From Nanobdellota archaeon (GTDB lineage Archaea; Nanobdellota; Nanobdellia; Pacearchaeales; GW2011-AR1), in contig JAGWGZ010000003.1 in NCBI GenBank assembly GCA_028867075.1, positions 1 through 43,710 of the forward strand: a stretch of DNA of 43,710 bases, in the 5' to 3' direction. The translations under genes and the position numbers were made by a program. Under the pieces are notes generated by a model. It was not told the origin of the DNA and made no database searches. It worked only from the letters and a program-made list of their open reading frames with translations. Shown here piece by piece: positions 31 to 43,049 of the stretch (positions are counted from its first letter, which is position 1; each line of letters starts with the position of its first letter).

Positions 31-2730
31 ATGGGATTTAACTTTAGAAAAATCGCAGCAATCGGAACCAGCGTTTTGTTAGCAGGTATGACAATGGGCT
101 TTGCCGCAGCAGCAAACTATCCTGCACCTTTCGTGCAGAATGGAGCATCTAATGTGGCAATAGTTGTCGGAAGCAGTGCATTACCAGCAGATTCTGTTAC
201 TGCAGGAAACATTGTTACTAACCTTAATTCCTCTTTGAGCTCATCAACAAGTTCTGGAGGATCAGTTAGTACAAGTGGAGAAGTCGTTGCATTGGACAAA
301 GGAACAACTTCCAGAATATGGTTAAATACTTCCTTGGCAAATGCACAAACAGTCTTTACAAAGACAGACTTTCCAACACTTCTTGCAGACGGTTCACTGT
401 CAGGTTCAAGCACAGCTACAGTTTCACAGACCATAACTATGGGTGCTGGAACGGCTGATGGAGGAGCAAACTCAGGAAGAGTAATCTTCGCAAGTCAACC
501 AACAAGTAATAGCGACCCTTCAGTAGGAGTAAGTCTTGGAGCTCCGCAATCAAACCCAATGTATAATATGACCATTACTTTCAGCACACCTGTTAACTTT
601 ACATCCAGCCTTACACAAGGGCAGACATTTACTATGTTTGGAAAACAATTCATAGTAAGTTCTTCCAGTAGTGCTTCAAATGGAATTGTTTTGTACTCTT
701 CTGCTTCAACATTAAATATGAATCAGGGAGATACAAATACAGTTACTATAAGCGGAACAAGTTATACAGTTACACTTGGAGCAGTAAGTAGCACAAGTGC
801 GCAGGTTACGGTTAATGGTGTTCAACAAAATGTTAACACTGGAACAACTGTAAATCTTGGTGGACTTAATGTAGGTGTTACAAGCCTATATCCTAGCTCA
901 GGACAAGCAAAGGCAGCAGCTACAGTTCTTGTAGGTTCAAACCAGATTAATATTGTAAGTGGTTCTGCAGTTACTCTTGGAAGTAACAAGCAGGTACTTG
1001 CAGGAACATACGCTAATATAACTGGTGGAGTAAATGCTACGACACAGATCAACATCGCTGTAGGATACACAGATACCTCTCATGATGCAATACTCAAGGG
1101 GCAATCTTTCGTAGACCCTATATTTGGAAGTTTCCAAGTCACTAATGCCGGATTAAGTTCTGGTACTAATGATACATCTAGGGACACTATAAAGGTTGGA
1201 ACATCTGGATCTACAACTATGACTCTTACAATGACAGACCATAGTGGAAATTCTGGTACATTTGATTTTGCAACAAACAAATCTGGTTATTGGAACTTGA
1301 CAACCTCAACAGGTTATCCAATTCTTCCATATGAAATGGCCAACCTTTCCCTCAATAGTGAAACTATTGTTGGAACAGGGACAAACAATCAGAACAATGG
1401 ACATTTACTTCAGTTGCAAACAGTGTACAATGATTCCAGCTCTGCTACAAGCAGTTATGTGACATTCCTTGATGTATTAAGTGGACAAACTTATACAGCA
1501 ACAGGATCAAGCACATATGGAACAGCAACATTGCCACTTGATGGTGTTCAATACACTGTAACATATAACACCCAAGGAGCTTCAGGAAGTCCACAGGGTG
1601 CATGGGCACAGATACAACAGTCAGCAAGCGCAGGTCAATTCGTATTATATCCAGCACTCTTAGCTAAAGGCGGAGAATCAGTTGAGTTATATACAAATTT
1701 GTCGAGCTTGAACCTTGGAAAGTTTGATGGAACTAACAAAGTATCCACATTCTACATTCCAAACGGTAATGGATATACATCTGTAACTGTGGCTGCTACA
1801 GGTATCAACAACACAGATACTAACTGGACATTTAGCGGTACTGGAATAACTACAACCATCATAAATAGTGGTACAAGTTATCCAAGTTCTATACACTATG
1901 TTAATATAACAGCTGGAAAGCTGGTATATAACCTTAGTATGACTGCAGCTGCAACCAACTTGAGCTCAGTACAGTTGTATAAACCTGGAACAGGAAGCTA
2001 CATTTCAGAACCAGCAGTTGTTGTATTTGAAGGAAAAGACAATAATAACAACTATAATGCTGTTGTTATTGACAGCACTGCTGTTCCAGTCGGAACAAGT
2101 ACAAGTGGTGTTGGTGTATCTGGTGTCTATTTCACTCAGGGAACACAATACGGAAGCGGTACATCTGGTGTACAGTTGTACAGCAACTCAAACCTTCAGC
2201 AATACATGGATGGATATGGAACACTTATAACAAAGGATTCCACATCATCAAGCCAGCCAATTGTAACATTGACTTACCCTACAACAGGGCAGGCATATGA
2301 GCAGTTGTATCTTGGTTCTGTAAGCGCTAGTGTTTCATCAAGCGGAGGTTCTGCTAACATTGGAAACATCATTGTTAGTGACTCACAGGTTTCAAGTGTC
2401 AATACAAAGAACCTGATTGTACTTGGTGGAAGCTGTGTTAACAGTGCTGCGGCTACATTGCTTGGCGTTCCTATGGGAACATGCACAACTGATTGGACAA
2501 CTGCAACAAGTGTTGGATCAGGGCAATTCCTTGTTCAGAGCTTCAGCTCTTCAAGCCAGAACCTTACAAGCGGAATCGCGGTATTGGTCGCTGGATATGA
2601 TGCACCTGACACATTGGCAGCTGCTACATGGTTGACAACAAGCAAGACAAATGGCGTTGGAGTTGATTTGAGTCCTGGTAAGAAATATACCGGAACAACA
2701 ACTACAGGTCAGGCTACACTTGTAAGCTAA
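31..2730 (+). CDS. S-layer protein
   Basis: 899 aa, N-terminal signal peptide (FRKIAAIGTSVLLAGMTMGFAAAA), extreme Ser/Thr/Gly/Asn content, N-terminal 'NVAIVVGSSALPADSVTAGNI' and C-terminal 'KNLIVLGGSCVNSAAATLLG' motifs typical of archaeal S-layer N/C domains. Confidence 0.85.
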   Translation: MGFNFRKIAAIGTSVLLAGMTMGFAAAANYPAPFVQNGASNVAIVVGSSALPADSVTAGNIVTNLNSSLSSSTSSGGSVSTSGEVVALDKGTTSRIWLNTSLANAQTVFTKTDFPTLLADGSLSGSSTATVSQTITMGAGTADGGANSGRVIFASQPTSNSDPSVGVSLGAPQSNPMYNMTITFSTPVNFTSSLTQGQTFTMFGKQFIVSSSSSASNGIVLYSSASTLNMNQGDTNTVTISGTSYTVTLGAVSSTSAQVTVNGVQQNVNTGTTVNLGGLNVGVTSLYPSSGQAKAAATVLVGSNQINIVSGSAVTLGSNKQVLAGTYANITGGVNATTQINIAVGYTDTSHDAILKGQSFVDPIFGSFQVTNAGLSSGTNDTSRDTIKVGTSGSTTMTLTMTDHSGNSGTFDFATNKSGYWNLTTSTGYPILPYEMANLSLNSETIVGTGTNNQNNGHLLQLQTVYNDSSSATSSYVTFLDVLSGQTYTATGSSTYGTATLPLDGVQYTVTYNTQGASGSPQGAWAQIQQSASAGQFVLYPALLAKGGESVELYTNLSSLNLGKFDGTNKVSTFYIPNGNGYTSVTVAATGINNTDTNWTFSGTGITTTIINSGTSYPSSIHYVNITAGKLVYNLSMTAAATNLSSVQLYKPGTGSYISEPAVVVFEGKDNNNNYNAVVIDSTAVPVGTSTSGVGVSGVYFTQGTQYGSGTSGVQLYSNSNLQQYMDGYGTLITKDSTSSSQPIVTLTYPTTGQAYEQLYLGSVSASVSSSGGSANIGNIIVSDSQVSSVNTKNLIVLGGSCVNSAAATLLGVPMGTCTTDWTTATSVGSGQFLVQSFSSSSQNLTSGIAVLVAGYDAPDTLAAATWLTTSKTNGVGVDLSPGKKYTGTTTTGQATLVS

Positions 2731-2772: not shown

Positions 2773-3042
2773 AACATCTGGCGAATGCCATCGAGGTTCA
2801 CTCTTTTGCAGATTCTATTTGCTGCTCGCTTCGCTCGCAGAATTTCTTGAAGAATTAATGATAATAGTTCTCTTATTTACAAGGAATTAGTTTTATGGGA
2901 CATAAAATTAGATTCAATTTTTTATTAACAATCTAATTAAATTGTGAGCGGAGTGAACGTATCTTTTAAGATTTTATAATATGGCATCTTGAAGGCGAGG
3001 AAAAAACAAAAAAGTTATAAATTAAACTTAATTTTAATAAAA

Positions 3043-3654
3043 ATGAGAAAAATAATCTCCAAGCAGGAGGAAGAGAGAAAAAAGAGAAGAAACCAGCTTA
3101 TAGTCGGCGGAATTCTCATCGGAGTAATGCTGCTCAGCACACTGGGTTATGCATTCCAAAGTTATCTTTATGGGGATACTTCTTCAACTGCAGGAACAAA
3201 TCAGACCGCTACATATAATGGGATAACTTTTGTGAACCAGAACGGATACTGGGTGCTCCAGTATCAAAACCAAAGGCTGGCATTTGCATACAACCCTCTC
3301 CAAATTTCATTAAAGAATCTGAGCGGAATTTCAATGAGCCTTAATTCTCTTGCAAATAAAACCCTTTATATTTATTCTGAAGATTATAATTCAGAATCAG
3401 AGCTAAGGATAAACTTACTGCACCTTACTGACAATATTCAAAATGCCTGCCCAGAAGGAATCCAATGCAATCAGTCACTTTACCAGGGACAACAACTTCC
3501 TGCTAAAGATTGCAGCAATAATTTCATAATAATACAGTCAGGCTCTCCCGGGATAAAGCAAGAGCAAAATTGCGTGTTTATATCAGGGCAGGGGCAAAAT
3601 TTAATAAGCTCAACTGACAATTTTTTATTTAAATTGTTTGGAATAGCACAATAA
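3043..3654 (+). CDS. Bitopic membrane protein with Lys/Glu/Arg-rich N-terminus and Cys-containing extracytoplasmic domain (uncharacterised)
   Basis: ORF-track start 2989 is TTG; ATG at 3043 is more likely (MRKIISKQEEERKKRRNQLIVGGILIGVMLL). One TM segment, then domain with several Cys. Confidence 0.65.
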   Translation: MRKIISKQEEERKKRRNQLIVGGILIGVMLLSTLGYAFQSYLYGDTSSTAGTNQTATYNGITFVNQNGYWVLQYQNQRLAFAYNPLQISLKNLSGISMSLNSLANKTLYIYSEDYNSESELRINLLHLTDNIQNACPEGIQCNQSLYQGQQLPAKDCSNNFIIIQSGSPGIKQEQNCVFISGQGQNLISSTDNFLFKLFGIAQ

Positions 3655-3655
3655 A

Positions 3656-4396
3656 ATGGCTGAAAAAAAGAAATCAGAAAAAGAAAGTGAAAAAAAAATA
3701 AAAAAACCTGCTGAAATTGAAAAGATAAGGGAAGAGATTATAGAAGACATAAACAAGTCAGAACAAGCCGAAGAAAAAAAAGAGGAAGAAGTCAAACCAG
3801 GGAAGACTCAAGTATTCAGGGAAAATAAGATACTGTTCAATGTCCTTCTTGTGATGGGTGTGATTGTTGTTTTCTTTATTGTCTTCCTCATAATTTCCAA
3901 TGATTCAAGCAGCTTCACACTGAATGGGGTAAAATATACTCTGATAAAACAGGGAAGTCTGTTTTTCTATAACACAAAGATTCCGGTAACACTAAATGGA
4001 AGTCCTGCAAATTATAATTTTTATCTGCAAAATGATCCAAGGAAGCTAATGTCAGAAATTCCATTCAGCGGGAACTTAAAGGTGGGGCAAGACACAATAA
4101 TTAACATCAACAATGATTTGGCATGCAATGGCGACGGTTCTGTCGGTGCATTGAATCTTGCAACGCTTTACAGAGTCATCGGCTCTAATGTTACAGCAAG
4201 CTCAAATGAAACATGCATGAACCAAACAAACTCGGTTTTCATAGATATTCAGCCTGCAAATGATACTTCAATAAGTCAGATTTCGCCTTACTGTTACAAG
4301 ATAGATGTAAGTAACTGCCAGATTTTAGCTGCAAGTGAGAGGTATATGGTGGAAACATTTTCAACCTTGGCTCCTTATTTTAATTCTTCCCAATAG
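3656..4396 (+). CDS. Bitopic membrane protein, probable paralog of the preceding gene (uncharacterised)
   Basis: 246 aa, K/E-rich cytosolic N-terminus, one TM (ILFNVLLVMGVIVVFFIVFLII), extracytoplasmic domain with FTLNGVKYTL and paired Cys; starts 1 nt after the previous stop. Confidence 0.7.
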   Translation: MAEKKKSEKESEKKIKKPAEIEKIREEIIEDINKSEQAEEKKEEEVKPGKTQVFRENKILFNVLLVMGVIVVFFIVFLIISNDSSSFTLNGVKYTLIKQGSLFFYNTKIPVTLNGSPANYNFYLQNDPRKLMSEIPFSGNLKVGQDTIININNDLACNGDGSVGALNLATLYRVIGSNVTASSNETCMNQTNSVFIDIQPANDTSISQISPYCYKIDVSNCQILAASERYMVETFSTLAPYFNSSQ

Positions 4397-5030
4397 AATC
4401 TGCAAGTTTTTTACGGCGATTTTTTATGAAGAGTATATAAGATGAAATAATCAAGAAGGAGACAGTTAGTATGAATGCTGTGATAAATACCGGATGTTGT
4501 TTGAGCCAGAACTGGTGCTTATCTGCAAGCCAGCCAGTATAAATCAAAACAAGGCTCCAAAAACCGGCTCCGATTCCGGTAAATAAACTGAATCTAAAAA
4601 GATCCATCTTTGCAAACCCGGCTGGAAGAGAGATTAGGTGCCTTATTCCCGGCAAAAGTCTGCCAATGAAAGTTGTGATTTCACCGTGTTTTAAAAAATA
4701 TTTGTCTGTACGGTCCAATTCAGTTCTGCTAATGAATAAGAATTTCCCATATCTTGAGACAAGACTTTCAATTGCCCTCCTTCCAAAGCTCAAAGCAATA
4801 AAATAATTTATAATTGCCCCAAGAATACTCCCAAGGATTGCAGCAAGAAATACGACGGCAAAATTCATTTTTCCCTGTGAAATAAGTGCGCCTGCCGGGA
4901 TGAGCATCAGTTCGCTGGGTAGAGGAAGAAATGAACTCTCTATGGTCATTCCGAGAAAGATTCCCACATAACCAAGCTTGTCTATTGCCCCCAATACAAA
5001 AGATACGATGCCTGAAACAAATCCGATCAT
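4380..5030 (-). CDS. DedA family (SNARE-associated/VTT domain) membrane protein
   Basis: GMTIESSFLPLPSELMLIPAGALISQGKMN and GRLLPGIRHLISLPAGFAKM motifs of DedA/VTT proteins. Confidence 0.9.
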   Translation of the reverse strand: MIGFVSGIVSFVLGAIDKLGYVGIFLGMTIESSFLPLPSELMLIPAGALISQGKMNFAVVFLAAILGSILGAIINYFIALSFGRRAIESLVSRYGKFLFISRTELDRTDKYFLKHGEITTFIGRLLPGIRHLISLPAGFAKMDLFRFSLFTGIGAGFWSLVLIYTGWLADKHQFWLKQHPVFITAFILTVSFLIISSYILFIKNRRKKLADSIGKN

Positions 5031-5563
5031 TTTTTAATAATCCTAATTAAATATTTTATATCAGAATAGAGCGGGATTTCTTTTATTTTATAAATCTTTA
5101 TTTCTGCAAACCATATCCCGACGACAAATATTGTGCTCAGAACATACCAGAATATTTCATGTGCCAAATTAAAGAATGAATATCCTGCCATGAATATTAA
5201 TGTTAACACAATTATCCTGATGATATTCAGCACGAGAAGCGCCAAAAATGACAAAAGTATCATCTCCGTCCTCTTTTTTATTTTTATGTCTGAAATTGAG
5301 AGATTCAAAATCAGCAATAGATAATATGCGGAGCCTGCGATGCATGCGCGGATTAATTCAATCGGGATAATATTGTTCAGAAGAAGAACATTATTTCCGA
5401 GAAGAGTGACATCAAAGAATAGTCTCAGTACAAGATAAACCGGATAAACGGTGAGTGGAGTAAACACAAAATAAAAAAGCCAAAGATTGGGCACGGCAAT
5501 AAGAATTAGCAGAAGATATCTCAAAGAGATATTAAAAATCTTCAGCCTTAATCTCTTTTTCAT
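5027..5563 (-). CDS. Exosortase/archaeosortase family protein
   Basis: 178 aa polytopic protein with ordered candidate catalytic residues Cys (ELIRACIAGSAYYLLL), Arg (LNIIRIIVLTLIF), His (NLAHEIFWYVLS); stop/start overlap with dedA. Confidence 0.7.
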   Translation of the reverse strand: MKKRLRLKIFNISLRYLLLILIAVPNLWLFYFVFTPLTVYPVYLVLRLFFDVTLLGNNVLLLNNIIPIELIRACIAGSAYYLLLILNLSISDIKIKKRTEMILLSFLALLVLNIIRIIVLTLIFMAGYSFFNLAHEIFWYVLSTIFVVGIWFAEIKIYKIKEIPLYSDIKYLIRIIKK

Positions 5564-5611
5564 GCTTTAATCTGTGGAAATCTATTTAAATAACTTTTTT
5601 TTAATGAGGTA

Positions 5612-6241
5612 ATGTCCAATAAAAAGAGAGTGATTCTTATCTTTTCTGTAATCTTTATCATACTGTTTGCTTTAAGCTTTTATTTTGACGCTCAAATTTC
5701 AAGAGGGTTTGAATCTTTAAGGGGCATGTATCTCAGCACATTCTTTCTCGGAGTGAATTTTCTTAATAACGAGATAATAATTACGGCTTTCCTTACATTA
5801 ATTCTTTTATGGGGCAGAAAAAAAAGAGAGTGGATCCTCCCCCTTTGGGTTACAATATTTTTGACTGCGGCATTATCTGTGGTTTTGAAAGTTTTGGTCC
5901 ATCGGCCGAGGCCTTTTGCAGCGGGCATTGTTTCATTGCTTCCGGGCATAGCTGCAAAAGCAAGTTACTTTACATGGGACTTTTCATTCCCATCATTTGA
6001 TTCTGCATTCATATTCTGCACAATCCCCATAATTTCAAAATTCTTCCCGAGGCTCAAATATCTGTGGATTGCATTTGCAGCACTCATTGCATTGTCAAGA
6101 GTTTTCCTTGGAGTTCATTACATGAGCGACGTGCTTGCCGGGGGCGTCCTTGGGTATGGTGTCGGATTATTCATCCTATGGATTGAAAACAGGAATAGCT
6201 TCTTTGGAAAGATATACAATAAGATTTCAGGAAAGAAATAA
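5612..6241 (+). CDS. PAP2 superfamily phosphatase (polyprenyl-PP phosphatase-like)
   Basis: KVLVHRPRP ... FPSFDSAFIF ... SRVFLGVHYMSDVLAGGVLG match the three PAP2 motifs. Confidence 0.88.
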   Translation: MSNKKRVILIFSVIFIILFALSFYFDAQISRGFESLRGMYLSTFFLGVNFLNNEIIITAFLTLILLWGRKKREWILPLWVTIFLTAALSVVLKVLVHRPRPFAAGIVSLLPGIAAKASYFTWDFSFPSFDSAFIFCTIPIISKFFPRLKYLWIAFAALIALSRVFLGVHYMSDVLAGGVLGYGVGLFILWIENRNSFFGKIYNKISGKK

Positions 6242-7966
6242 TTACTTTCTCTTGGCAACTTTCACGATGATAATGACAATTGCTACAACCAGTATCAGGT
6301 TCAATAATCCGATGCCCCACACATACCAGTTTCCGCCAGAGATTGCTCCGCCGGTTATTGAAGCCCAGAATTTTGGAGTTATTGAAATCTGAAGGGGTTG
6401 CTTTGTTATCAGATAGCTGTTTGAATATGTGTCAAGGTAAAACAGTTTGTCTCCAGATGCATCTGAATTTGGATTCAAAGTTACCGTAATTACCTGCGAT
6501 TGCCCGGGCGAGAGCGTGATGTTAAGCGGGTTTATGCTTGAAAGAGTTGCCCATGAGGAATAACCCTCCAATCCGAAATTATAGCTTACTGTTCTGTTTC
6601 CGGTATTTCCGACAGTCGCTTCTATCACTAGAGGCTCTCCTGCTTTTCCACCTGATTGAAGTTGCGCATTAACCTGCGTTGTTTCCGGAGTTGCATAAAC
6701 GCAATTTCCTTTTACAGTCAATTGGGTGGTGAAGATATTATCTGACACGTACCTATAATAATTACCATCTATATAGTATCCATTATTGGTCGTCGTATAT
6801 CCATAATAAGTCAAAAATGAAAGAGTGTATGTCTTTTCTGCTGCATTCATCGGGACTGTAAATGTGAACGGCACCTGCATGCCCTCTCCGGAATTCAAAT
6901 CCCCATATAACGTCTGGTTCAAATCCAATCCCAGTTCTGTGTTATAAAGCCTTACAAACACCTGGTTTTTATAATCGGCAGAGCCTATGTTGTACACTGT
7001 CGGGGTAAGCGTAATCTGCTGGTTGCATTGTGCGGTTGTGCTTGCCGGAAGAGAACTGCTGTCAACAATCACTGCCTTTGATGAAGTTGGCGAGGTTACA
7101 GAGACATCTGCATAATAATTTGATGAGCTGTAACTGGATAAATCATTAGAATGGTCTATACATAGATTATTCTCTCCGCTATCATAAGAATATGCTTTTA
7201 TGAAAAGCCTGTATGAGCCTGTCTTAATATCGGGATTTACTTTAAATTGAAAGTCATATTTGTAATTATCCCCTGACGCTATGTCTCCAACCTGAACCTT
7301 TTCACTATCCTGAAGCCAGTCAAGATTTCCCGCCACATTATTATTTGTTCCCCCCTTAATAAGTCCCATCACAAAGTAAACATTACTAAGGTCATTATTC
7401 TGGTTGTTATCCAATTCTACCTGAACATCAATCGAATCTAATGGCTGCCACTGCGTATCGCTCGCTCCATTTCCATTATTTGTTATTGTAACATACATGG
7501 TCAATCCAGTGTCGTTCTGGTCTCCGCTGTTACAGAATGATTTCAGATAAGTTAGAGTGACATTCGTACTATTAGTTATAGAAGGATTTGTAGAATTAAC
7601 TACATTAAATTGAATAATCTCGGGATAACTGGTACCATATGTAAAACTTCCAGAATTAATATTTGAATTTAGGGATATATTATAGATTGCTGTACCTGTT
7701 GAGAGAATATTATTAATGTTTAATGGGTTTATTGCGAAATCATAAAAATTTCCATTATTATCAGTTAAGTGATTTACAACAGAACCTGAAGAAACATTAA
7801 AGCTAGAATCATAGTTTGGGTTAGATAGGGATAGTATTTGAGAACTTCCAGAACCACTAAAAGTAGAAATTCCAGATGGAGTTAAGCTCAGAGCGCTAAT
7901 ACCTGAAAGAGCCATCGTGAGTACAAGAATGCTTAATGCAAAAATGCCAAATAATCTTGATTTCAT
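6242..7966 (-). CDS. Secreted surface protein with CARDB/NEW3-like Ig domains and C-terminal TM anchor (putative sorted surface protein)
   Basis: Signal peptide, 'GEPLVIEATVGNTGNRTVSYNFGL...LSPGQSQVITVTLNPNSDA' NEW3-like pattern, tail SITGGAISGGNWYVWGIGLLNLILVVAIVIIIVKVAKRK. Confidence 0.75.
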   Translation of the reverse strand: MKSRLFGIFALSILVLTMALSGISALSLTPSGISTFSGSGSSQILSLSNPNYDSSFNVSSGSVVNHLTDNNGNFYDFAINPLNINNILSTGTAIYNISLNSNINSGSFTYGTSYPEIIQFNVVNSTNPSITNSTNVTLTYLKSFCNSGDQNDTGLTMYVTITNNGNGASDTQWQPLDSIDVQVELDNNQNNDLSNVYFVMGLIKGGTNNNVAGNLDWLQDSEKVQVGDIASGDNYKYDFQFKVNPDIKTGSYRLFIKAYSYDSGENNLCIDHSNDLSSYSSSNYYADVSVTSPTSSKAVIVDSSSLPASTTAQCNQQITLTPTVYNIGSADYKNQVFVRLYNTELGLDLNQTLYGDLNSGEGMQVPFTFTVPMNAAEKTYTLSFLTYYGYTTTNNGYYIDGNYYRYVSDNIFTTQLTVKGNCVYATPETTQVNAQLQSGGKAGEPLVIEATVGNTGNRTVSYNFGLEGYSSWATLSSINPLNITLSPGQSQVITVTLNPNSDASGDKLFYLDTYSNSYLITKQPLQISITPKFWASITGGAISGGNWYVWGIGLLNLILVVAIVIIIVKVAKRK

Positions 7967-8105: not shown

Positions 8106-8549
8106 TTAGAAATCAGAATCAAATTTGTTTGAAGGCTTCTTGTCCTCAACAACAACTTCTGCTTCCCGGTCAACTTTTGCAAAAGAAGGTGTTGCTATCA
8201 CTATATTTTCTCTGAAACCAACAATACTTCCTTCAAGGGCATCTGTTGTTTTTTTGATTTTTGAAATGGCCCTCTTAAGTTCAATAGGGTCTTTCTGCCT
8301 TAAAATCTTTGTTTCAATAACTGCAATTGTATAACCGTCTCTAAGGGCAGCGAGTATCTTGTTTACATCATCATAGTGCTTTAGAACAAACAGCTTGATC
8401 ATCACTTTATGCTCTTCTTTTCCCTGATTCAGATCAATTTCAAGATAATCTTCGTCGGATACGCCTGAAGATTTTCCTGACAATCCTTTCCTCAATTTTT
8501 CAAACACCATAGTATCAGAATAAGGGTTATCTTTATAAAGATTTCGCAA
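8106..8549 (-). CDS. sepF: Cell division protein SepF
   Basis: DYLEIDLNQGKEEHKVMIKLFVLKHYDDVNKILAALRDGYTIAVIETK...GSIVGFRENIVIATPSFAK matches archaeal SepF (DUF552); a shorter start at 8510 is possible. Confidence 0.85.
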   Translation of the reverse strand: MRNLYKDNPYSDTMVFEKLRKGLSGKSSGVSDEDYLEIDLNQGKEEHKVMIKLFVLKHYDDVNKILAALRDGYTIAVIETKILRQKDPIELKRAISKIKKTTDALEGSIVGFRENIVIATPSFAKVDREAEVVVEDKKPSNKFDSDF

Positions 8550-9411: not shown

Positions 9412-10110
9412 TTACTTTTTAGCGGGTTTTGCTGCAGGTTTTGCAGGTGCTGCAGGAGCGGTTGAAGATGGTGCTGCAGTAGGTGTGGCAGCTCCCGGAG
9501 TAGCTGTTGCCGCCTGTGCTGCTGCAGCTGCTGCCTGAGCAGCTTCTTCCTGTTTCTTGAGTTTTTCCTGTGCAGATTTCAACTCTGTAAAGAATGCGTC
9601 AAGTTTTGCCTTTTTTTCAAGAGGAGTCTCTGTTATCTCATGGGAAATCTCTTTGTCATACTTTCCCTGATCAATCTCCACCTGAACTTCATTTGGGAAT
9701 TTGCTTTCAACTAAAATTCCAAGACTGACGCAGGTTCCGACAATTTCTTTTACAGCTGCTTTCATATTTTTTGCAAGAAGGCTCGGGTATTTCGCTTTTG
9801 CAATTGAGATTATCTGCTCTATTGAAAGATTTCCTACCTTATTTTTTGATGGGGCGCCGGAGCCCTTCTCAACTCCAACTTCCTTCTTCAGTAATCCTGA
9901 AGCCGGAGGCGAAGAAACATGAACAATAATATTTTTCGTCGGAATGTCTATTTCAACTTCAACAGGGACTTTCATTCCTGAGAATTTTTTTGTTGATTCA
10001 TTGACCTTTGTTATAACCTGATTGACATTTATTCCGGTAGGGCCGAGCTTCTGGCTCAAAGCAGGTCCGGGCTTCATTGCCCCGCCCTCAACTAAAAGTT
10101 TAATCTGCAT
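9412..10110 (-). CDS. rpl11: Ribosomal protein uL11 with Ala/Pro-rich C-terminal extension
   Basis: IKLLVEGGAMKPGPALSQKLGPTGINVNQVI; C-terminal AAQAAAAAAQAATATPGAATPTAAPSS tail. Confidence 0.95.
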   Translation of the reverse strand: MQIKLLVEGGAMKPGPALSQKLGPTGINVNQVITKVNESTKKFSGMKVPVEVEIDIPTKNIIVHVSSPPASGLLKKEVGVEKGSGAPSKNKVGNLSIEQIISIAKAKYPSLLAKNMKAAVKEIVGTCVSLGILVESKFPNEVQVEIDQGKYDKEISHEITETPLEKKAKLDAFFTELKSAQEKLKKQEEAAQAAAAAAQAATATPGAATPTAAPSSTAPAAPAKPAAKPAKK

Positions 10111-10561
10111 TTTCTTCCTCCTGTTCGTCTCTGCTTATTGCCCGCACATTGTCAATTTTAATCGTAACCGGTAATTGCACAAGTGCGCCAAGCAGGCTCA
10201 CAACAACATCTCCTTTTTGCTCATCAACTCTTAAAACTTTCGCTTTTTCTTTTTTGAAAGGCTCTGAAATTATCTCAACAATGTCTCCTTCTTTTATTGA
10301 AACCGGCGCTGTTGAGGTTTCAACCATGTTCTTTATTTCTTCATAAGCGAGAGTCTTTCCGATTATTCCCTTAACATAAGGCAGGTTGAAGACGGCCTCT
10401 TCTGCAGATTCCCTGTCCTCTGCTTCAAGGAGGATATATCCTCTCAAACCATGCGGCCTTATAACCGAATGCACATTAAGATTTTTCTTTTCTATTCTGT
10501 CAGTTATCAAATCAACTGCGCTTTCTTCCTTGTTTGTTGTTACTTTTATTACGAATATCAT
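10100..10561 (-). CDS. spt5: Transcription elongation factor Spt5 (NusG-like)
   Basis: NGN domain (IRPHGLRGYILLEAEDRESAEEAVFNLPYVKGIIG) plus KOW (IKEGDIVEIISEPFKKEKAKVLRVDEQKGDVVVSLL); start MIFVIKVTT. Confidence 0.93.
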   Translation of the reverse strand: MIFVIKVTTNKEESAVDLITDRIEKKNLNVHSVIRPHGLRGYILLEAEDRESAEEAVFNLPYVKGIIGKTLAYEEIKNMVETSTAPVSIKEGDIVEIISEPFKKEKAKVLRVDEQKGDVVVSLLGALVQLPVTIKIDNVRAISRDEQEEENAD

Positions 10562-10635
10562 CTTTAGCTCCATCTAGGCTCTAATGATCCCAGAAAGAGA
10601 TAATATTATTTAAAATTTGGGTTTATAAATCTTTA

Positions 10636-12630
10636 TTAATTATTTGGATAATATCTCGGTGAACTAGAGTATGTATAATCCATGGTATGGACAGCAGTCA
10701 CTTCGGAACCATCCTTATTCATTACATAGAGTTTCGGCCATCCATCCCCCCTATAAGAAATGAAGGCTACCCTTTTTCCATCTGGAGAGAAGCTTGGGTC
10801 AAAATCAACTGCGGAATTGTTAGTAAGATTAACTGGATTAGAGCCATCTGAGCTCATCATATAAACTTCGGGGTTCCCGCCTCTTCTTGAAACAAATAAT
10901 ATTTCCTTCCCGTCTGGAGAAAATGAAGGCGAGGAATCATAAGAACTTGTTCCCGGGATCTTTTGCCTGAGAGAGCTTCCCTCGGTAATATAGAGACCAT
11001 CATAAGAAGAAAAGATAATTTTCTTTCCATCAGATGACCAGCGTGGGCTATTAACCAGATTGTATGCATTAGTCACTTCTGTCTGGTTTGATCCATCGGA
11101 GTTCATTATGTAAAGTTTATAGAGATAATTTTTATCCCGGTTTGTCACAAAAGCTATTTTTGTTCCATCGGGGGATAGGTCAGAGTCAAAATCATCTGCT
11201 GGATCCGAAGTCAACTGAGTAACCTGAGTTCCATCGGAGTTCATTATGTAAATATCTAAATTCCCATTCTGTTTTGAAGTGTAGGATATCTTTTTTCCGT
11301 CTGAAGATAAAGAGGGATTAAACTCTCCAAAGAATTGGCTGAAATTAGATACTTTTGTTAGACTTGAACTGTCTGAGCTTACAGAATATATCTGAGGATA
11401 ATCCGGACTGGAAGGCGGTATAGAAGGATAACTCATAACAAACAAAATTTTTTCCAAAATTTCAGGAGGCGTTGGAGGGGTTGGTTTTTCCCAAGACGCT
11501 AATTGCATTTCTGTTCCGGGGATATTTGTTGAATAATCTGCAAATTTGAGCCCGAATATCTTTCCTTCCACCCCCAACAGAAACTCCAAACCCCCAAGAA
11601 GTTTTCCAGAATCCTGATTCGAATCCAGTTTTAAATATGCATTGATTCCCGCATACGGCCCTGCAACATTATAAAAACGAAAATGGATCATTGGACCCAG
11701 AGCGGCTTTTACAGAGTTAATGCTGGAAATAGTCGGAGGATTATAACTAAAACTATTTGTAAATTTCTGTATAGGGGACCATTTTCCAGAATCGTAGGAC
11801 AGGCCGATTCCCAAAGAAGCGCTTTGCGTTACATTTGCCCCGGCGCTGACAGAGATATTTCCACCGATACTTCCAGTAGGTGTTACGGCAGGCGTTACTA
11901 TAATCGGCAACGGAGGCGTTGTCGGAAAATATCCTAATCTAACTGATGGTAATTTATATTCTTTGAAATCTTTTTTAATATTTATATCTGGTTTTTCAAG
12001 ATTAGACGTTAATTGAAGGGAAACAGAATCATTGCTTGTGCTCTTAAAGATAAATTTATCCAGGACAGACTCCCCTATGTCAAAACTCAAATAAAGATTA
12101 GAATCAAGAGAGACATTTCCATTTAATAAAAGCGCATTATTTATGTCTTCATCCCCATTTAAGCTATAAAGAATGAAGTTGTCTATGGGTTGATTAAAAT
12201 TAAAGAGGTTCAGAATCAATCTCGGCATGTTTGAGAGACGAAAAGTTATTGACCTGCTCGTCTCAAAGGACACATTTTTTACAGCCTCCTCAAGTGTTGC
12301 GGGGACCGTGTGAACCATACCCCCTGATACGTATGACACTTTTCTGAATAATCCATCCGGGGTCTGCGGAGTTATATCTGCGACGACTATCTCATTGATG
12401 TAATATGACGATGCGTTAGAAACTGTTATTGAGTTGTCTGAAACAGAGGATATTGAAGAAGTTTCATCTGTACTTAGAACATGAGTGTTCTCTGACAGGT
12501 TATTTTGTTCTGTTGTGACCGGTTTCGGCGGGTTTATCGGGGGAGGGCATCCGAGCAAATTCAGAGCAAGCAATCCGGCTGCAGCTGTTCTTGTTATCGT
12601 CTTCCAGATAGGGCGCTTCTTAGAAGCCAT
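10636..12630 (-). CDS. TolB-like beta-propeller surface lipoprotein
   Basis: Lipobox-like LLALNLLGCPPP; repeated 'YIMNSDGTQVTQLTSDPADDFDSDLSPDGTKIAFVTNR' WD40-like (PD40) blades. Confidence 0.85.
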   Translation of the reverse strand: MASKKRPIWKTITRTAAAGLLALNLLGCPPPINPPKPVTTEQNNLSENTHVLSTDETSSISSVSDNSITVSNASSYYINEIVVADITPQTPDGLFRKVSYVSGGMVHTVPATLEEAVKNVSFETSRSITFRLSNMPRLILNLFNFNQPIDNFILYSLNGDEDINNALLLNGNVSLDSNLYLSFDIGESVLDKFIFKSTSNDSVSLQLTSNLEKPDINIKKDFKEYKLPSVRLGYFPTTPPLPIIVTPAVTPTGSIGGNISVSAGANVTQSASLGIGLSYDSGKWSPIQKFTNSFSYNPPTISSINSVKAALGPMIHFRFYNVAGPYAGINAYLKLDSNQDSGKLLGGLEFLLGVEGKIFGLKFADYSTNIPGTEMQLASWEKPTPPTPPEILEKILFVMSYPSIPPSSPDYPQIYSVSSDSSSLTKVSNFSQFFGEFNPSLSSDGKKISYTSKQNGNLDIYIMNSDGTQVTQLTSDPADDFDSDLSPDGTKIAFVTNRDKNYLYKLYIMNSDGSNQTEVTNAYNLVNSPRWSSDGKKIIFSSYDGLYITEGSSLRQKIPGTSSYDSSPSFSPDGKEILFVSRRGGNPEVYMMSSDGSNPVNLTNNSAVDFDPSFSPDGKRVAFISYRGDGWPKLYVMNKDGSEVTAVHTMDYTYSSSPRYYPNN

Positions 12631-12637
12631 ATTAGTT

Positions 12638-12820
12638 TCAGATTGCAGTTACAATCAGGGAAATGATAAATCCGACAAGTCCAAGAATTATAATACTAAT
12701 CGCGGAAATTTTTGAAGTCGCCTTGAATTCATCCTTTGTCGGCTTCCTCAAAACCTGCCAGACCCTTTTGCATTTCAGATAAAATGATTTCGCATTAACT
12801 GGGAATTCTTTAAGAGACAT
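12638..12820 (-). CDS. secE: Protein translocase subunit SecE (Sec61 gamma)
   Basis: 60 aa: KCKRVWQVLRKPTKDEFKATSKISAISIIILGLVGFIISLIV; adjacent to ftsZ. Confidence 0.92.
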   Translation of the reverse strand: MSLKEFPVNAKSFYLKCKRVWQVLRKPTKDEFKATSKISAISIIILGLVGFIISLIVTAI

Positions 12821-12850: not shown

Positions 12851-13930
12851 TTATTCAATGAACTCAATTCCGAGCTCCTCTTCTATCTCTCTGTGGCGCG
12901 ATTGTTCTCCGGCTTCTTCTTTTCCGACAATTTGATAGCTTCTTACACCGGTTATTATAAGAAGAACCCTGACTGCTTTATCCATGTCGTCAGAAATCTG
13001 CGCACCCCAGATTAATTTTGCATCAGGGCTCAGTTTTTGCCCTACTAAGGAGATTATGTTCTTGCATTCATCAAGGCTCATATTCGGGCCGCCGACGATG
13101 TTCACCAACGCCCCGGTTGCGTTTGAAACATCAACGTCAAGAAGCGGGTTGTTAAGTGCTCTTTCAACAGCTTCTATCGAGCGCTGTCCCGTCATGTCTG
13201 ATTCGCCCATACCTATAAGCGAGACTCCGCCATCAACCATGACTGCTTTTATATCTGCAAAATCAAGATTAACCAACCCTGTTGTTGTTACAAGTTCTGT
13301 TACACCTTTGACTGCATTTGTAAGGATCTCATCTGCAATCTTGAATGCTGTATGAAGCGGCAAATCAGGGGCAAGTTCAAGAAGCTTGTCATTTGGAATT
13401 ATGATAAGGGTATCAACAACTTCCTGCATCCTTTCCAGACCGTCCATCGCATTTTCTATTCTCTTTTTTCCCTCAATTGTAAATGGTAAAGTCACAACCC
13501 CGATTGTAAGAGCTCCCTGTTTTTTTGCAAGAGATGCGATAACCGGCGCGGCACCTGTTCCTGTTCCGCCGCCGAGACCACAGGTTATGAAGACCATGTC
13601 GCTATTGCCGAGCTTTTTCTTTATTTCTGATTCTGATTCTTTTGCAGATTCTTCCCCGATTCGCGGATTGCTTCCTGCTCCGAGCCCATGAGTTAATTCC
13701 TTGCCTATCAAAATCTTCTGGTCTGCATCCGTATAGAGCAAGTCCTGCGCGTCTGTATTGACTGCAATCAACTCACCGCCTTTTATTCCAATCTCTTTCA
13801 TCCTGTTAAGAGAATTATTTCCGCCGCCGCCTACACCGACCACCTTTATTTTGGCAGTTTGCTCTTTAATCAGCTCTTCAAGCTCCCTGTCTATATCTTT
13901 TACCTTAGAAGAACCATATACCTCTTCCAT
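12851..13930 (-). CDS. ftsZ: Cell division protein FtsZ
   Basis: VVGVGGGGNNSLNRM, GLGGGTGTGAAPVIA tubulin signature, INLDFADIKAVM-like synergy region. Confidence 0.97.
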   Translation of the reverse strand: MEEVYGSSKVKDIDRELEELIKEQTAKIKVVGVGGGGNNSLNRMKEIGIKGGELIAVNTDAQDLLYTDADQKILIGKELTHGLGAGSNPRIGEESAKESESEIKKKLGNSDMVFITCGLGGGTGTGAAPVIASLAKKQGALTIGVVTLPFTIEGKKRIENAMDGLERMQEVVDTLIIIPNDKLLELAPDLPLHTAFKIADEILTNAVKGVTELVTTTGLVNLDFADIKAVMVDGGVSLIGMGESDMTGQRSIEAVERALNNPLLDVDVSNATGALVNIVGGPNMSLDECKNIISLVGQKLSPDAKLIWGAQISDDMDKAVRVLLIITGVRSYQIVGKEEAGEQSRHREIEEELGIEFIE

Positions 13931-38920: not shown

Positions 38921-39922
38921 ATGGTAAGCGTATGGCTATTTGGAACGGTCCTTGTTAGTTTTTTTGTTACTCTCTTTATAATGCCCTTTTGGATAAGAAA
39001 GGCAAAACAGATTGGGCTAGTCTGGGAAAATATGAATAAGTTCAATAAAGAAAAGAATATGGCTGGTTCCGGAGGGACTATAGCTGTTCTTGGCACGCTT
39101 ATAGGTATTTTTGTATATATCGCAATACAGACGTTCGTCTTCAAAAGTTCAGACGGAGTTATAACAGAAATTTTTGCAATAGTTAGCTCATTATTTTTAG
39201 TCGCGGGCATCGGATTGATTGATGATTTATTCGGTTGGCAAAGGGGGGGCATGTCAATTCGCTCCAGGTTAATCCTTGTCCTTTTTGCGGCCATACCGTT
39301 GATGGTGATAAATGCGGGAAATTCGAGCATTGCCGGAATCAATCTCGGACTTTTGTATCCTCTGATAATAATACCGCTTGGGGTTGTGGGGGCCACAACA
39401 ACATATAACTTTCTAGCAGGATATAATGGACTTGAGGCAAGACAGGGAATATTGATCCTTGGGGCACTTGCGCTTGCATCTTACTTGCAGGGCAATAGCT
39501 GGCTCAGCCTTATCGCATTAATAATGGTTGCGTCCCTGGTTGCATTTTATGTATTCAATAAATATCCTGCAAAAGTCCTCCCGGGAGATGTTATGACTTA
39601 TTCAATCGGCATAATGATTGCAGCAATAGCAATTTTGGGGAATTTAGAGCTCGTCGCTGTTTTGTTCTTCATACCTTACATCATTGAAACTATTCTAAAG
39701 GCGAGGGGCGGTCTGAAAAAATACAGCTTCGGAAAACCAAATCCGGATGGGAGTTTGGATCTTTTGTATGATAAATTCTATGGGCTGGAACACATAGCAC
39801 TCTATGTTCTAAAAAAGATAAAACCGAGCCACAAAGTTTATGAGAAAGATGTTGTGAATCTGATTAATGGATTTCAAATCGTGATTATCTTACTTGTCTT
39901 ATTATTTATGCATATCATCTAA
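38921..39922 (+). CDS. UDP-GlcNAc:(poly)prenyl-phosphate GlcNAc-1-phosphate transferase (Alg7/MraY family)
   Basis: GSGGTIAVLGTLIGI, GIGLIDDLFGWQ, NFLAGYNGLEARQGILILGALAL, PAKVLPGDVMTYSIG. Confidence 0.9.
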   Translation: MVSVWLFGTVLVSFFVTLFIMPFWIRKAKQIGLVWENMNKFNKEKNMAGSGGTIAVLGTLIGIFVYIAIQTFVFKSSDGVITEIFAIVSSLFLVAGIGLIDDLFGWQRGGMSIRSRLILVLFAAIPLMVINAGNSSIAGINLGLLYPLIIIPLGVVGATTTYNFLAGYNGLEARQGILILGALALASYLQGNSWLSLIALIMVASLVAFYVFNKYPAKVLPGDVMTYSIGIMIAAIAILGNLELVAVLFFIPYIIETILKARGGLKKYSFGKPNPDGSLDLLYDKFYGLEHIALYVLKKIKPSHKVYEKDVVNLINGFQIVIILLVLLFMHII

Positions 39923-39923
39923 A

Positions 39924-41072
39924 ATGGATTCAATACCAAAGAAAATTGCCCTTTTCCACCCTTGGATAAAAAGTAAGGGCGGGGCAGAGAGAGTTATCCT
40001 TGAATTGCTCAAAAAATCCAGACATAACATTGATATATATACATGGGCTTATGACAGAGAAAATACTTTTCAGGAATTTGAGAATTACAAGATAAATGTT
40101 ATTTCACCCTTGCTTGGAAAGAAGATGTCGCGGTTTTATATTCTTCGGGGATTATTTCTTCCATTGAGCATCTTAAAAAAGATTCCATTGTCAAGATATG
40201 ACAAGTTATTAATATCCACCTCTGGAATAGCAGAATTCTTAACATTCAGAAATTACAAAAGGGGCAGAACCTATGCTTATGTCCACACCCCACTCAGAGA
40301 AGCAAGTGATAAAATAGTAAAGTGGAATCTTGAAAACCGTTATTCTCAGAAGCCCCTTAGCAAATATCTTTATTTGATAGCTGTAAAGACTTACAAAATC
40401 TTTGAAAAGATTGCCTGGAAACGGCTGGATGTTGTCATATTCAATTCTAAGTTAAGCAAATCAAGGGCAGAGGAAAGGAATCTCATTATCAATAAAGAAT
40501 CGCATGTCGTTTATCCCCCTCTGAGTTTATCCGAGTTTAAGACGGGGGAAGACAAGAAATATTTCTTGTATGTATCCCGATTAAATCCTCCGAAAAGGCA
40601 GGATGTTCTGATTGAAGCTTGGAAGATATTTTCAGAGAAACATAAAGAGTTTAAACTTGTAATTATCGGAACACCTGAAAATGAAAGATATTATCGAGAG
40701 CTCTTGAAATCTTCTGCAGGCATAAGGTCAATAGAAGTTAAACCATACGTGTCCGATAAGGATTTAAGGACGCTGTATTCACACTGTACTGCCGGACTTT
40801 TCATCGGTTATCAGGAGGATTTTGGAATTGTTCCCTTAGAGATATTATCTTCAGGGAAGCCCCTCATTGCAGTGGATGAGGGGGGATATGTTGAATTAGT
40901 GAAGAACCATCCCCATTTCCATGCAATAAAAGAGAGACATACCAGAGAAGAGATGATTCGAGAAATTGCAACTGAACTTGAATCATTTCTGAAGAAGAGA
41001 TTTCCTAAGAAAGTTGAAAAGATAAAAGTTAAGAGTTTCATAAATGAGATGGATCAAATTTTGGGAAAATGA
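39924..41072 (+). CDS. Glycosyltransferase family 4 protein
   Basis: KIALFHPWIKSKGGAERVILELLKKS...YVSRLNPPKRQDVLIEAWKIF...QEDFGIVPLEILSSGKPLIAVDEGG. Confidence 0.92.
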   Translation: MDSIPKKIALFHPWIKSKGGAERVILELLKKSRHNIDIYTWAYDRENTFQEFENYKINVISPLLGKKMSRFYILRGLFLPLSILKKIPLSRYDKLLISTSGIAEFLTFRNYKRGRTYAYVHTPLREASDKIVKWNLENRYSQKPLSKYLYLIAVKTYKIFEKIAWKRLDVVIFNSKLSKSRAEERNLIINKESHVVYPPLSLSEFKTGEDKKYFLYVSRLNPPKRQDVLIEAWKIFSEKHKEFKLVIIGTPENERYYRELLKSSAGIRSIEVKPYVSDKDLRTLYSHCTAGLFIGYQEDFGIVPLEILSSGKPLIAVDEGGYVELVKNHPHFHAIKERHTREEMIREIATELESFLKKRFPKKVEKIKVKSFINEMDQILGK

Positions 41073-41962
41073 CATCAAGAAATAAGAAATTGCCTTTGGT
41101 ATGCATCATAATCCTTAATCTTAATGGGAAAAGTTTTACTGAGAATTGTTTGAACTCCATACAAGAAAACACAGCCTATAAGCAGTATCGCACCATCGTA
41201 GTTGATAATAACTCCACGGATGGTTCGCGGGAGATGATAAAATCCAGATTTAAATGGGTGAATCTGATAGAGAATACGGAAAACAGGGGATTTTCCGGAG
41301 GAAACAATGACGGAATATCGTGGGCTATCAAGAGATATAATCCGGACTACTTTTATCTGCTTAACAATGATACTTTGGTAATGGATGGGTGGCTTAGCGA
41401 AGCGATAAAAACTGCGGAACATGATAGCAAGATAGGTATTGTCGGGAGCAAGCAGTTTAATTTTGATAAGGAACCAACAATAAGTGCTGGTTGGATTAAA
41501 ACGACAGGTGTAAAGTACTATTATGGTGATGAAGACAGGGAGGTTAGTTGGGTGTCCGGCGCAGGATTTTTAATAAAAAAAGAGGCAATAATGAAGATTG
41601 GCCTATTCGATGAGATGTATAATCCAGCATATTATGAAGAGACTGATTTTGAAAGAAGGGCCATAATGGCCGGGTTTAAGATCTTTCATTCAATTAAATC
41701 TGTTTTCCTGCATGCCGGAGGCGGCACGACAAAAAATGAGAAGCAAAAAGATTATAATGTAATCTTCTACCGGAATAGAGCCCGATTTTTCTCCAAATAC
41801 AATCCTGTAGGATTAATCTTTCGGTTTTTTACAGATATTATAAGAGCTGGGGGCCGGATAATCTGGATCGATTTAGTCAGATCTTATTTCTTGGGAATAA
41901 AAGACAGAAATAAAAATGAAATAAAATATCCTTATAACCTAGAAAAGAATGAAACCGATTAA
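41069..41962 (+). CDS. Glycosyltransferase family 2 protein
   Basis: VCIIILNLNGKSFTENCLNSI...TIVVDNNSTDGSREMIKSRF...NRGFSGGNNDGI...NNDTLV. Confidence 0.93.
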   Translation: MTSRNKKLPLVCIIILNLNGKSFTENCLNSIQENTAYKQYRTIVVDNNSTDGSREMIKSRFKWVNLIENTENRGFSGGNNDGISWAIKRYNPDYFYLLNNDTLVMDGWLSEAIKTAEHDSKIGIVGSKQFNFDKEPTISAGWIKTTGVKYYYGDEDREVSWVSGAGFLIKKEAIMKIGLFDEMYNPAYYEETDFERRAIMAGFKIFHSIKSVFLHAGGGTTKNEKQKDYNVIFYRNRARFFSKYNPVGLIFRFFTDIIRAGGRIIWIDLVRSYFLGIKDRNKNEIKYPYNLEKNETD

Positions 41963-43049
41963 AGTTTACTTGCAGTATCCCTGGAAATTCCCAGATTCCC
42001 CCTACTATAAGTCTCTTGTAGAAAATCCTCCGAAGGGAGTTGAATTCTTAAATGCAGTCAAGGGCGGCGGAGCAATAACAAATAAGCATATGTTTAAAAT
42101 TTCGGGAATAGCAAAAAGACTCATCCGGCTTGGATTTAAGATTGTTTATCCTTCAATCCCGAATGCCCATTATCCGCGTAAGGGAGATTATGATCTGATT
42201 CATTGCGCTCATTGCCTTTCCATAAGCAAAGATAAACCATGGGTTGCAGACATAGAGATGAATACTTCGATGTTTTTGACGGGTAGAATTGGCAAATTGG
42301 GCGAAAGAAAAATAAGGAATTTAGTAATGGATAGCAAGTGTAAGAAGTTATTACCTTGGACAGAATATGCAAAACAGGGGATACTGGATGTTTTTCCTGA
42401 GTTCGGGAAGAAATTGGAAGTAGTATATCCCGCAATACCTGCAAGAAAGAATCTTAAAAAAAGCAGTAATAAAAGACTAAGAATACTTTTCGTTGCAAGA
42501 TACTTTGACATAAAGGGAGGTCTTATAGCCTTGGAAATTCTTGAAAGGCTAAGGGCAAAATATGGGGTTGAGGGAATCATTGTATCTGTCGTCCCTGATG
42601 AAATAAAATTAAGATACCCTCATCTGAAGATTTATAATCTTATGCCGCAGCAAGAATTATTTCAGCTTATGGAATCTTCTGATCTTTTTCTATACCCCGG
42701 ATCCTATGATACCTTTGGGTTTGCTCTTCTTGAAGCTATGAGTTTTGGCCTTCCAATACTGACCATAATTACTCCAAATTCCGCGAGCAGAAAAGAAATT
42801 GTCTCTGCCGGAAAAACAGGAGAATATATAGAACTGGATAAAAATCTCTCCGGAACATCAATAGGAGAATATGAAGAGAGAGCAATTTCTGAGATAATGA
42901 AGAAGGCCGAATTATTTATTAAAAACAGGAAGAGAATTGAAGTGATGAAAAAACAATGCCTTAAAGAAATCTCTTCCGGAAGATTCTCACTCGTCAAAAG
43001 GAATAAACAGTTACGGAGGATATATGAAGAAGCAATCAGGCAAAGATAA
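41949..43049 (+). CDS. Glycosyltransferase family 4 protein
   Basis: LRILFVARYFDIKGGLIALEILERLRAKYG...SSDLFLYPGSYDTFGFALLEAMSFGLPILT. Confidence 0.88.
   Translation: MKPIKVYLQYPWKFPDSPYYKSLVENPPKGVEFLNAVKGGGAITNKHMFKISGIAKRLIRLGFKIVYPSIPNAHYPRKGDYDLIHCAHCLSISKDKPWVADIEMNTSMFLTGRIGKLGERKIRNLVMDSKCKKLLPWTEYAKQGILDVFPEFGKKLEVVYPAIPARKNLKKSSNKRLRILFVARYFDIKGGLIALEILERLRAKYGVEGIIVSVVPDEIKLRYPHLKIYNLMPQQELFQLMESSDLFLYPGSYDTFGFALLEAMSFGLPILTIITPNSASRKEIVSAGKTGEYIELDKNLSGTSIGEYEERAISEIMKKAELFIKNRKRIEVMKKQCLKEISSGRFSLVKRNKQLRRIYEEAIRQR

Follow-up and report, generated by a model that had tools for sequence, protein, structure and literature searches.

A pacearchaeosortase and its predicted single substrate in a conserved S-layer gene cluster of a Nanobdellota archaeon

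The 178 aa membrane protein encoded at 5027-5563(-) of the window (the whole stretch of 43,710 nucleotides analysed here) is, by its sequence, a pacearchaeosortase. Together with the neighbouring 574 aa PACE-CTERM surface protein it very probably forms a dedicated archaeosortase system, in which one enzyme processes one substrate by the mechanism proposed below. The family names and the small genome suggest a DPANN archaeon of Pacearchaeota type as the source. The enzyme-substrate pairing is already part of NCBIfam, and as both families were named there by NCBI (NCBIfam: NF033505 and NF033506), this finding is a correct rediscovery and not a new one. New is the location of the pair in a conserved S-layer gene cluster together with two lipid-carrier genes, a context which we did not find in the literature searched. 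The features of the locus are the following:

31..2730, plus strand: S-layer protein, conserved cluster member (PF05124, E=3.9e-12)
2989..3654, plus strand: small membrane-anchored protein A, first of two related genes (relatives in 73/81 loci)
3656..4396, plus strand: small membrane-anchored protein B, second of the two related genes (relatives in 73/81 loci)
4380..5030, minus strand: DedA/VTT protein, UptA-like, of the polyprenyl-phosphate flippase superfamily (PF09335, E=3e-21)
5027..5563, minus strand: pacearchaeosortase, polytopic membrane protein of 178 aa, archaeosortase/exosortase superfamily (NF033505, TIGR04178, AlphaFold2)
5159..5161, minus strand: His135, in LAHE (invariant, 81/81)
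5216..5218, minus strand: Arg116, in NIIRI (invariant, 81/81)
5342..5344, minus strand: Cys74, predicted nucleophile, in ACIAGS (invariant, 81/81)
5583..5592, no strand: palindromic TATTTAAATA, predicted shared bidirectional TATA box (exact centre of the 48-bp gap 5564-5611)
5612..6241, plus strand: PAP2 lipid phosphatase of 209 aa, between enzyme and substrate, divergent from the enzyme (PF01569, E=9e-19)
6242..7966, minus strand: PACE-CTERM surface protein of 574 aa with signal helix, Ig-like beta domains and CTERM tail, predicted sole substrate (NF033506, AlphaFold2)
6251..6328, minus strand: CTERM membrane helix, residues 547-572, bearing the W..W.IG..N.IL signature with N556 (tail alignment, AlphaFold2)
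6329..6361, minus strand: low-confidence linker SITGGAISGGN, residues 536-546 (pLDDT under 50)
8106..8549, minus strand: SepF cell-division protein, adjoining the substrate gene (PF04472)

The enzyme and its PACE-CTERM substrate

Both open reading frames, of 178 aa and 574 aa, lie where the original prediction had placed them. The enzyme matches the NCBIfam pacearchaeosortase model with 210.4 bits (NF033505, E=1.7e-62, cut-off 80, profile positions 2-166 of 167) and the superfamily model exo_archaeo with 30.2 bits (TIGR04178, curated cut-off 23). The proposed archaeosortase membership, for which an exosortase-family HMM match had been suggested as a check, is thus confirmed by two models above their cut-offs. 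The Cys-Arg-His triad of the TIGR04178 superfamily, predicted in ACIAGS, NIIRI and LAHE, is present as C74, R116 and H135 and is invariant in the alignment of all 81 orthologues (81 loci, mostly one per genus), as are R15, T38, N113, W139 and P164. The enzyme had also been described as short for its family, which is true in comparison with archaeosortases of roughly 300-500 aa but not within its own branch, where about 166-208 aa is the usual length. In one genome of the set (G048) a second, longer archaeosortase was found besides the pacearchaeosortase (724 aa open frame; L191, G048:C32:6670-6948).

The AlphaFold2 model of the enzyme is confident, compact and polytopic (pLDDT 96.1, pTM 0.88). 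Neither a sequence search of the PDB, which found no related chain, nor a fold search with the model, which returned no significant match (only DgkA, with E=0.7 or worse), detected a relative, so the superfamily is apparently without a solved structure in the PDB copy searched. No viral match to the model was found.

The substrate protein at 6242-7966(-) matches the PACE-CTERM-PROT model with 376.8 bits (NF033506, E=2e-112, cut-off 110) over profile positions 176-627 of 627, the C-terminal tail included. Its AlphaFold2 model consists of a signal helix (residues 2-21), a chain of beta domains, the linker of residues 536-546 and a terminal helix (residues 547-572) that starts at W547, and its basic C-terminal end is KVAKRK. 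A fold search gave generic multi-Ig matches alone, with low TM-score; the S-layer protein 7ptp was found at rank 33.

Judging by the tail alignment, what is conserved is not ITGG but NWxxWxIGxxNxIL, after which come an aliphatic helix and R/K; the alignment from which this consensus was derived drew on tails possessing the helix Asn. The conserved residues are positioned at the helix start and inside the helix. A lineage-specific, ITGG-like recognition motif had been proposed earlier, and its place is taken by a signal that runs into the membrane helix: ITG occurs in 23 of 71 tails and TGG in 8 of 71, and the stretch itself is part of the low-confidence linker, which rules out ITGG as the recognition motif. 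The window tail contains no PGF motif and has no match to the PGF-CTERM profile.

The in-helix Asn, preceding two small or aliphatic residues and Leu, is found in 62 of the 71 tails and a basic residue near the C-terminal end in 70 of them. This helix signature is kept across genera, though the whole substrates are only about 22-35% identical to that of the window. Nine of the 71 tails have no helix Asn despite the presence of the enzyme, and may represent a second tail type or relaxed recognition. Examined for enzyme-tail co-evolution, these tails are scattered on the enzyme tree, which is weakly supported, with 7 changes compared to a mean of 8.7 in shuffled data (16 of 500 shuffles were as low).

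A profile built from the tail has a single match in the source genome, on the substrate (E=7.5e-19), and no additional tail-bearing protein was detected there up to E=10. Across the order, strong tail matches are again essentially one per genome and on the substrate gene. Absence of the tail from other proteins of the genome, which the original prediction had listed as a refuting observation, is therefore literally what we see, but it does not refute the pairing, because here one enzyme serves one target. On these profile searches the system is one of an enzyme and a single dedicated target.

Among 180 genomes of the order, the enzyme is present in 159 and the substrate family in 174. Of these genomes, 117 have both the enzyme and a strong tail, 42 the enzyme without a strong tail (which include diverged tails), two the tail without the enzyme and 19 neither of them; this co-presence is partly confounded, since the two genes are neighbours in incomplete assemblies, so that a lost contig removes both. 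In both tail-only genomes, the substrate is located at a contig end, right where the enzyme would come next. The curated NF033505/NF033506 pair, as well as the 117 genomes with both compared with the two with the tail only, support the earlier suggestion that the neighbouring surface protein is the cognate substrate, even though the substrate does not adjoin the enzyme in several families of the order.

We propose that the PACE-CTERM protein is exported by Sec, by means of its predicted signal helix, and held in the membrane by its C-terminal helix. The pacearchaeosortase would recognise NWxxWxIGxxNxIL around the outer end of this helix, where Cys74 would attack with the assistance of Arg116 and His135. 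The helix and basic tail would then be released and the new C-terminus passed to a membrane lipid, which would result in a lipid-anchored protein. The mechanistic precedent is the cleavage and lipid anchoring by ArtA (PMC7157517), and both cleavage and lipidation of the PACE-CTERM protein are inferred by analogy with this Haloferax enzyme. Once anchored, the substrate probably contributes to the assembly of the cell surface together with the S-layer protein encoded nearby. Our literature search found no biochemical test of any pacearchaeosortase, and no paper on pacearchaeosortases or on a link between archaeosortases and PAP2.

The C-terminal helix could alternatively be a plain, permanent membrane anchor and the adjoining enzyme an unrelated or differently acting membrane protein, in line with the diverged helices of nine of the 71 tails. 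We consider this improbable, as a helix signature would then have been conserved across genera between substrates of such low identity, and as enzyme and tail co-occur, the catalytic residues are all invariant and the tail belongs to a curated CTERM family.

Gene cluster and shared intergenic region

The gene order across the 81 loci is substrate, PAP2 on the opposite strand, enzyme and DedA, followed on the opposite strand by the two small membrane proteins and the PF05124 S-layer protein. Relatives of proteins A and B sit between the S-layer gene and the enzyme in 73 of the 81 loci, and the two proteins (2989-4396) are candidate S-layer assembly factors. In the S-layer protein itself (31..2730(+)) no C-terminal membrane helix was seen. 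The orientation of the genes is close to constant: the S-layer gene is convergent with the enzyme in 67 of 67 loci, the substrate is upstream of the enzyme on the same strand in 73 of 75, and PAP2 and DedA keep their orientation in 38 of 39 and 32 of 34, respectively. SepF is found on the far side of the substrate in 56 loci, with 65 loci having room for it.

In the window, an FtsZ-like ORF (12851-13930) and SepF (8106-8549) are found beside the sortase cluster, and the proximity of SepF is conserved; in Haloferax, ArtA, PssA and PssD localise at midcell (PMC7157517). Further along, the ORF at 10636-12630 encodes 664 aa with PD40 repeats of the WD40-like kind and, close to the N-terminus, a lipobox-like LLGC; it is flanked by NusG-like (10100-10573) and SecE-like (12638-12820) ORFs, both identified by eye.

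PAP2 and DedA are optional members of the cluster. DedA adjoins the enzyme in 34 of the 81 loci, 22 loci have neither gene beside the enzyme, and some genomes of the order have no PAP2 match at all. The start of the window DedA overlaps the enzyme stop by 4 bp, and the protein (4380..5030(-)) matches NF052604 with 123 bits, below the cut-off of 250. Of the 61 sampled genomes having any PAP2, 37 have a copy no more than 1.5 kb from the enzyme; by our estimate, chance would give about 1% for a genome size of about 700 kb. PAP2 adjoins the enzyme in families f4, f6 and f7 of the same order, where in most loci no substrate is found beside the enzyme, and in several families of other orders of the class it again lies alongside minimal archaeosortases, the substrate being inverted or missing there. 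PAP2 therefore stays with the enzyme even in cases in which the substrate is elsewhere.

The palindrome TATTTAAATA marks the exact centre of the gap between enzyme and PAP2. Fourteen loci with a 48-bp gap have this box at the same central position, and in others it is near-central; the central box was seen in families f1 and f4 and in another order, with varying flanks. We infer from this that one symmetric TATA box may fire both ways onto leaderless messages, making the region a candidate bidirectional promoter, which PAP2 apparently shares with the enzyme.

Lipid-carrier genes and the anchor lipid

The PAP2 protein (5612..6241(+)) matches PF01569 with 68 bits. Its C1 and C3 motif residues are intact, whereas the His of C2 is replaced by Asp, so that motif 2 reads PSFD instead of PSGH (D130 at 5999-6001). 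In family f1, 19 of the 31 cluster PAP2s have another residue in place of the motif-2 His (16 Gln, and once each Arg, Ser and Asp, the last being the window protein), compared to none of 20 non-cluster PAP2s from f1 genomes (Fisher p=3e-6, uncorrected for relatedness). The H163A variant of E. coli PgpB keeps 27% of its activity on C55-PP and 0.09% on PGP (PMC7413402), although an earlier study cited there disagreed on the PGP activity. The lost His together with this activity pattern suggests, by analogy, a prenyl-diphosphate substrate for the cluster PAP2s. The most likely function of PAP2 would then be to remove a phosphate from a prenyl-diphosphate carrier on the outside, after which DedA, being UptA-like, would return the product across the membrane; the pathway served would be either surface glycan or anchor chemistry.

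The leading reading of PAP2 and DedA is carrier recycling for surface glycosylation, because the window encodes a GPT-type sugar-phosphate transferase (PF00953) and glycosyltransferases at 38921-43049 and the genome an STT3 homologue; STT3/AglB is found in 45 of 55 genomes, the source genome included. The two proteins may even serve glycosylation only, recycling the polyprenyl-PP released by AglB, and be clustered with the enzyme merely since this is a surface-layer locus. To this we assign a middling probability: a diphosphate substrate would be in keeping with the missing motif-2 His, but PAP2 also adjoins the enzyme in six genomes without an STT3 match (where a divergent AglB could escape the search), seems to share its promoter with the enzyme specifically, and remains next to it in loci with a relocated or inverted substrate gene.

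Many DPANN archaea have little lipid synthesis of their own. UppS is rare (13 of 55 genomes), and carriers may therefore come from a host. A profile search detected a PssD homologue (PF02666) in none of 55 genomes of the order, CDP-alcohol transferases (PF01066) are rare as well (11 of 55), and the source genome, about 89% complete, has none of these PssA/PssD-type lipid-donor genes (PF02666, PF01066). Because no PssD was found in the 55 genomes, the anchor lipid must differ from the Haloferax one or be supplied differently, the ArtA donor route being unavailable as known.

This leaves room for a direct role of PAP2 and DedA in sorting, in which they make or recycle the lipid donor, a polyprenyl or other lipid that replaces archaetidylethanolamine. 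The absence of PF02666 and the rarity of PF01066 in the 55 genomes, the divergent and apparently shared promoter, the adjacency in 37 of 61 PAP2-bearing sampled genomes and the presence of PAP2 beside the enzyme in other orders of the class are in agreement with such a role, and artA-pssA-pssD synteny did mark true lipidation partners (PMC7157517). Nevertheless we regard it as rather unlikely, since 22 of 81 loci have neither gene by the enzyme, genomes without a PAP2 match indicate that PAP2 is not essential to the reaction, and donor lipids may come from a host. Slightly more doubtful again is the wider proposal that minimal DPANN archaeosortases have a co-regulated PAP2 and an UptA-like DedA supplying or recycling an unusual anchor lipid (polyprenyl-type or host-derived) in place of the PssA/PssD archaetidylethanolamine route.

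Relation to known systems

As the enzyme-target pair is catalogued already, the value of this analysis is the cluster context. With its single target, its confident model and the lack of any solved structural relative, this small archaeosortase lends itself as a minimal case for the whole exosortase superfamily. Furthermore, because PAP2 and DedA keep company with the enzyme, a promoter is apparently shared and PssD is missing, the identity of the anchor lipid becomes a directly testable question, which bears on the attachment of surface proteins in DPANN archaea.

The closest known system is the NF033505/NF033506 pair, with which the window pair shares the lengths and the gene pairing, at scores far above the cut-offs; nothing essential differs and one member is added. 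The family lines of both models are without mention of a PAP2, DedA, S-layer or SepF neighbourhood. Haloferax volcanii ArtA is likewise a membrane Cys enzyme of the same superfamily, with a tripartite C-terminal signal and an S-layer-related target (PMC7157517). In comparison, the window enzyme is smaller, its substrate has no PGF motif, it has one target instead of several, PssD was not found in the order, and PAP2 and DedA are the neighbours in place of pssA and pssD. Bacterial exosortases (EpsH/Xrt, PEP-CTERM) resemble the enzyme in the Cys-Arg-His order and by weak XrtM, XrtX and XrtH matches, but it scores below all exosortase subfamily cut-offs and differs in the signal and in the domain of life. 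The window PAP2 shares with Escherichia coli PgpB the motifs K..RP, PS and SR.....H...D, while the motif-2 His of PgpB is Asp in the window protein and Gln in many of its relatives.
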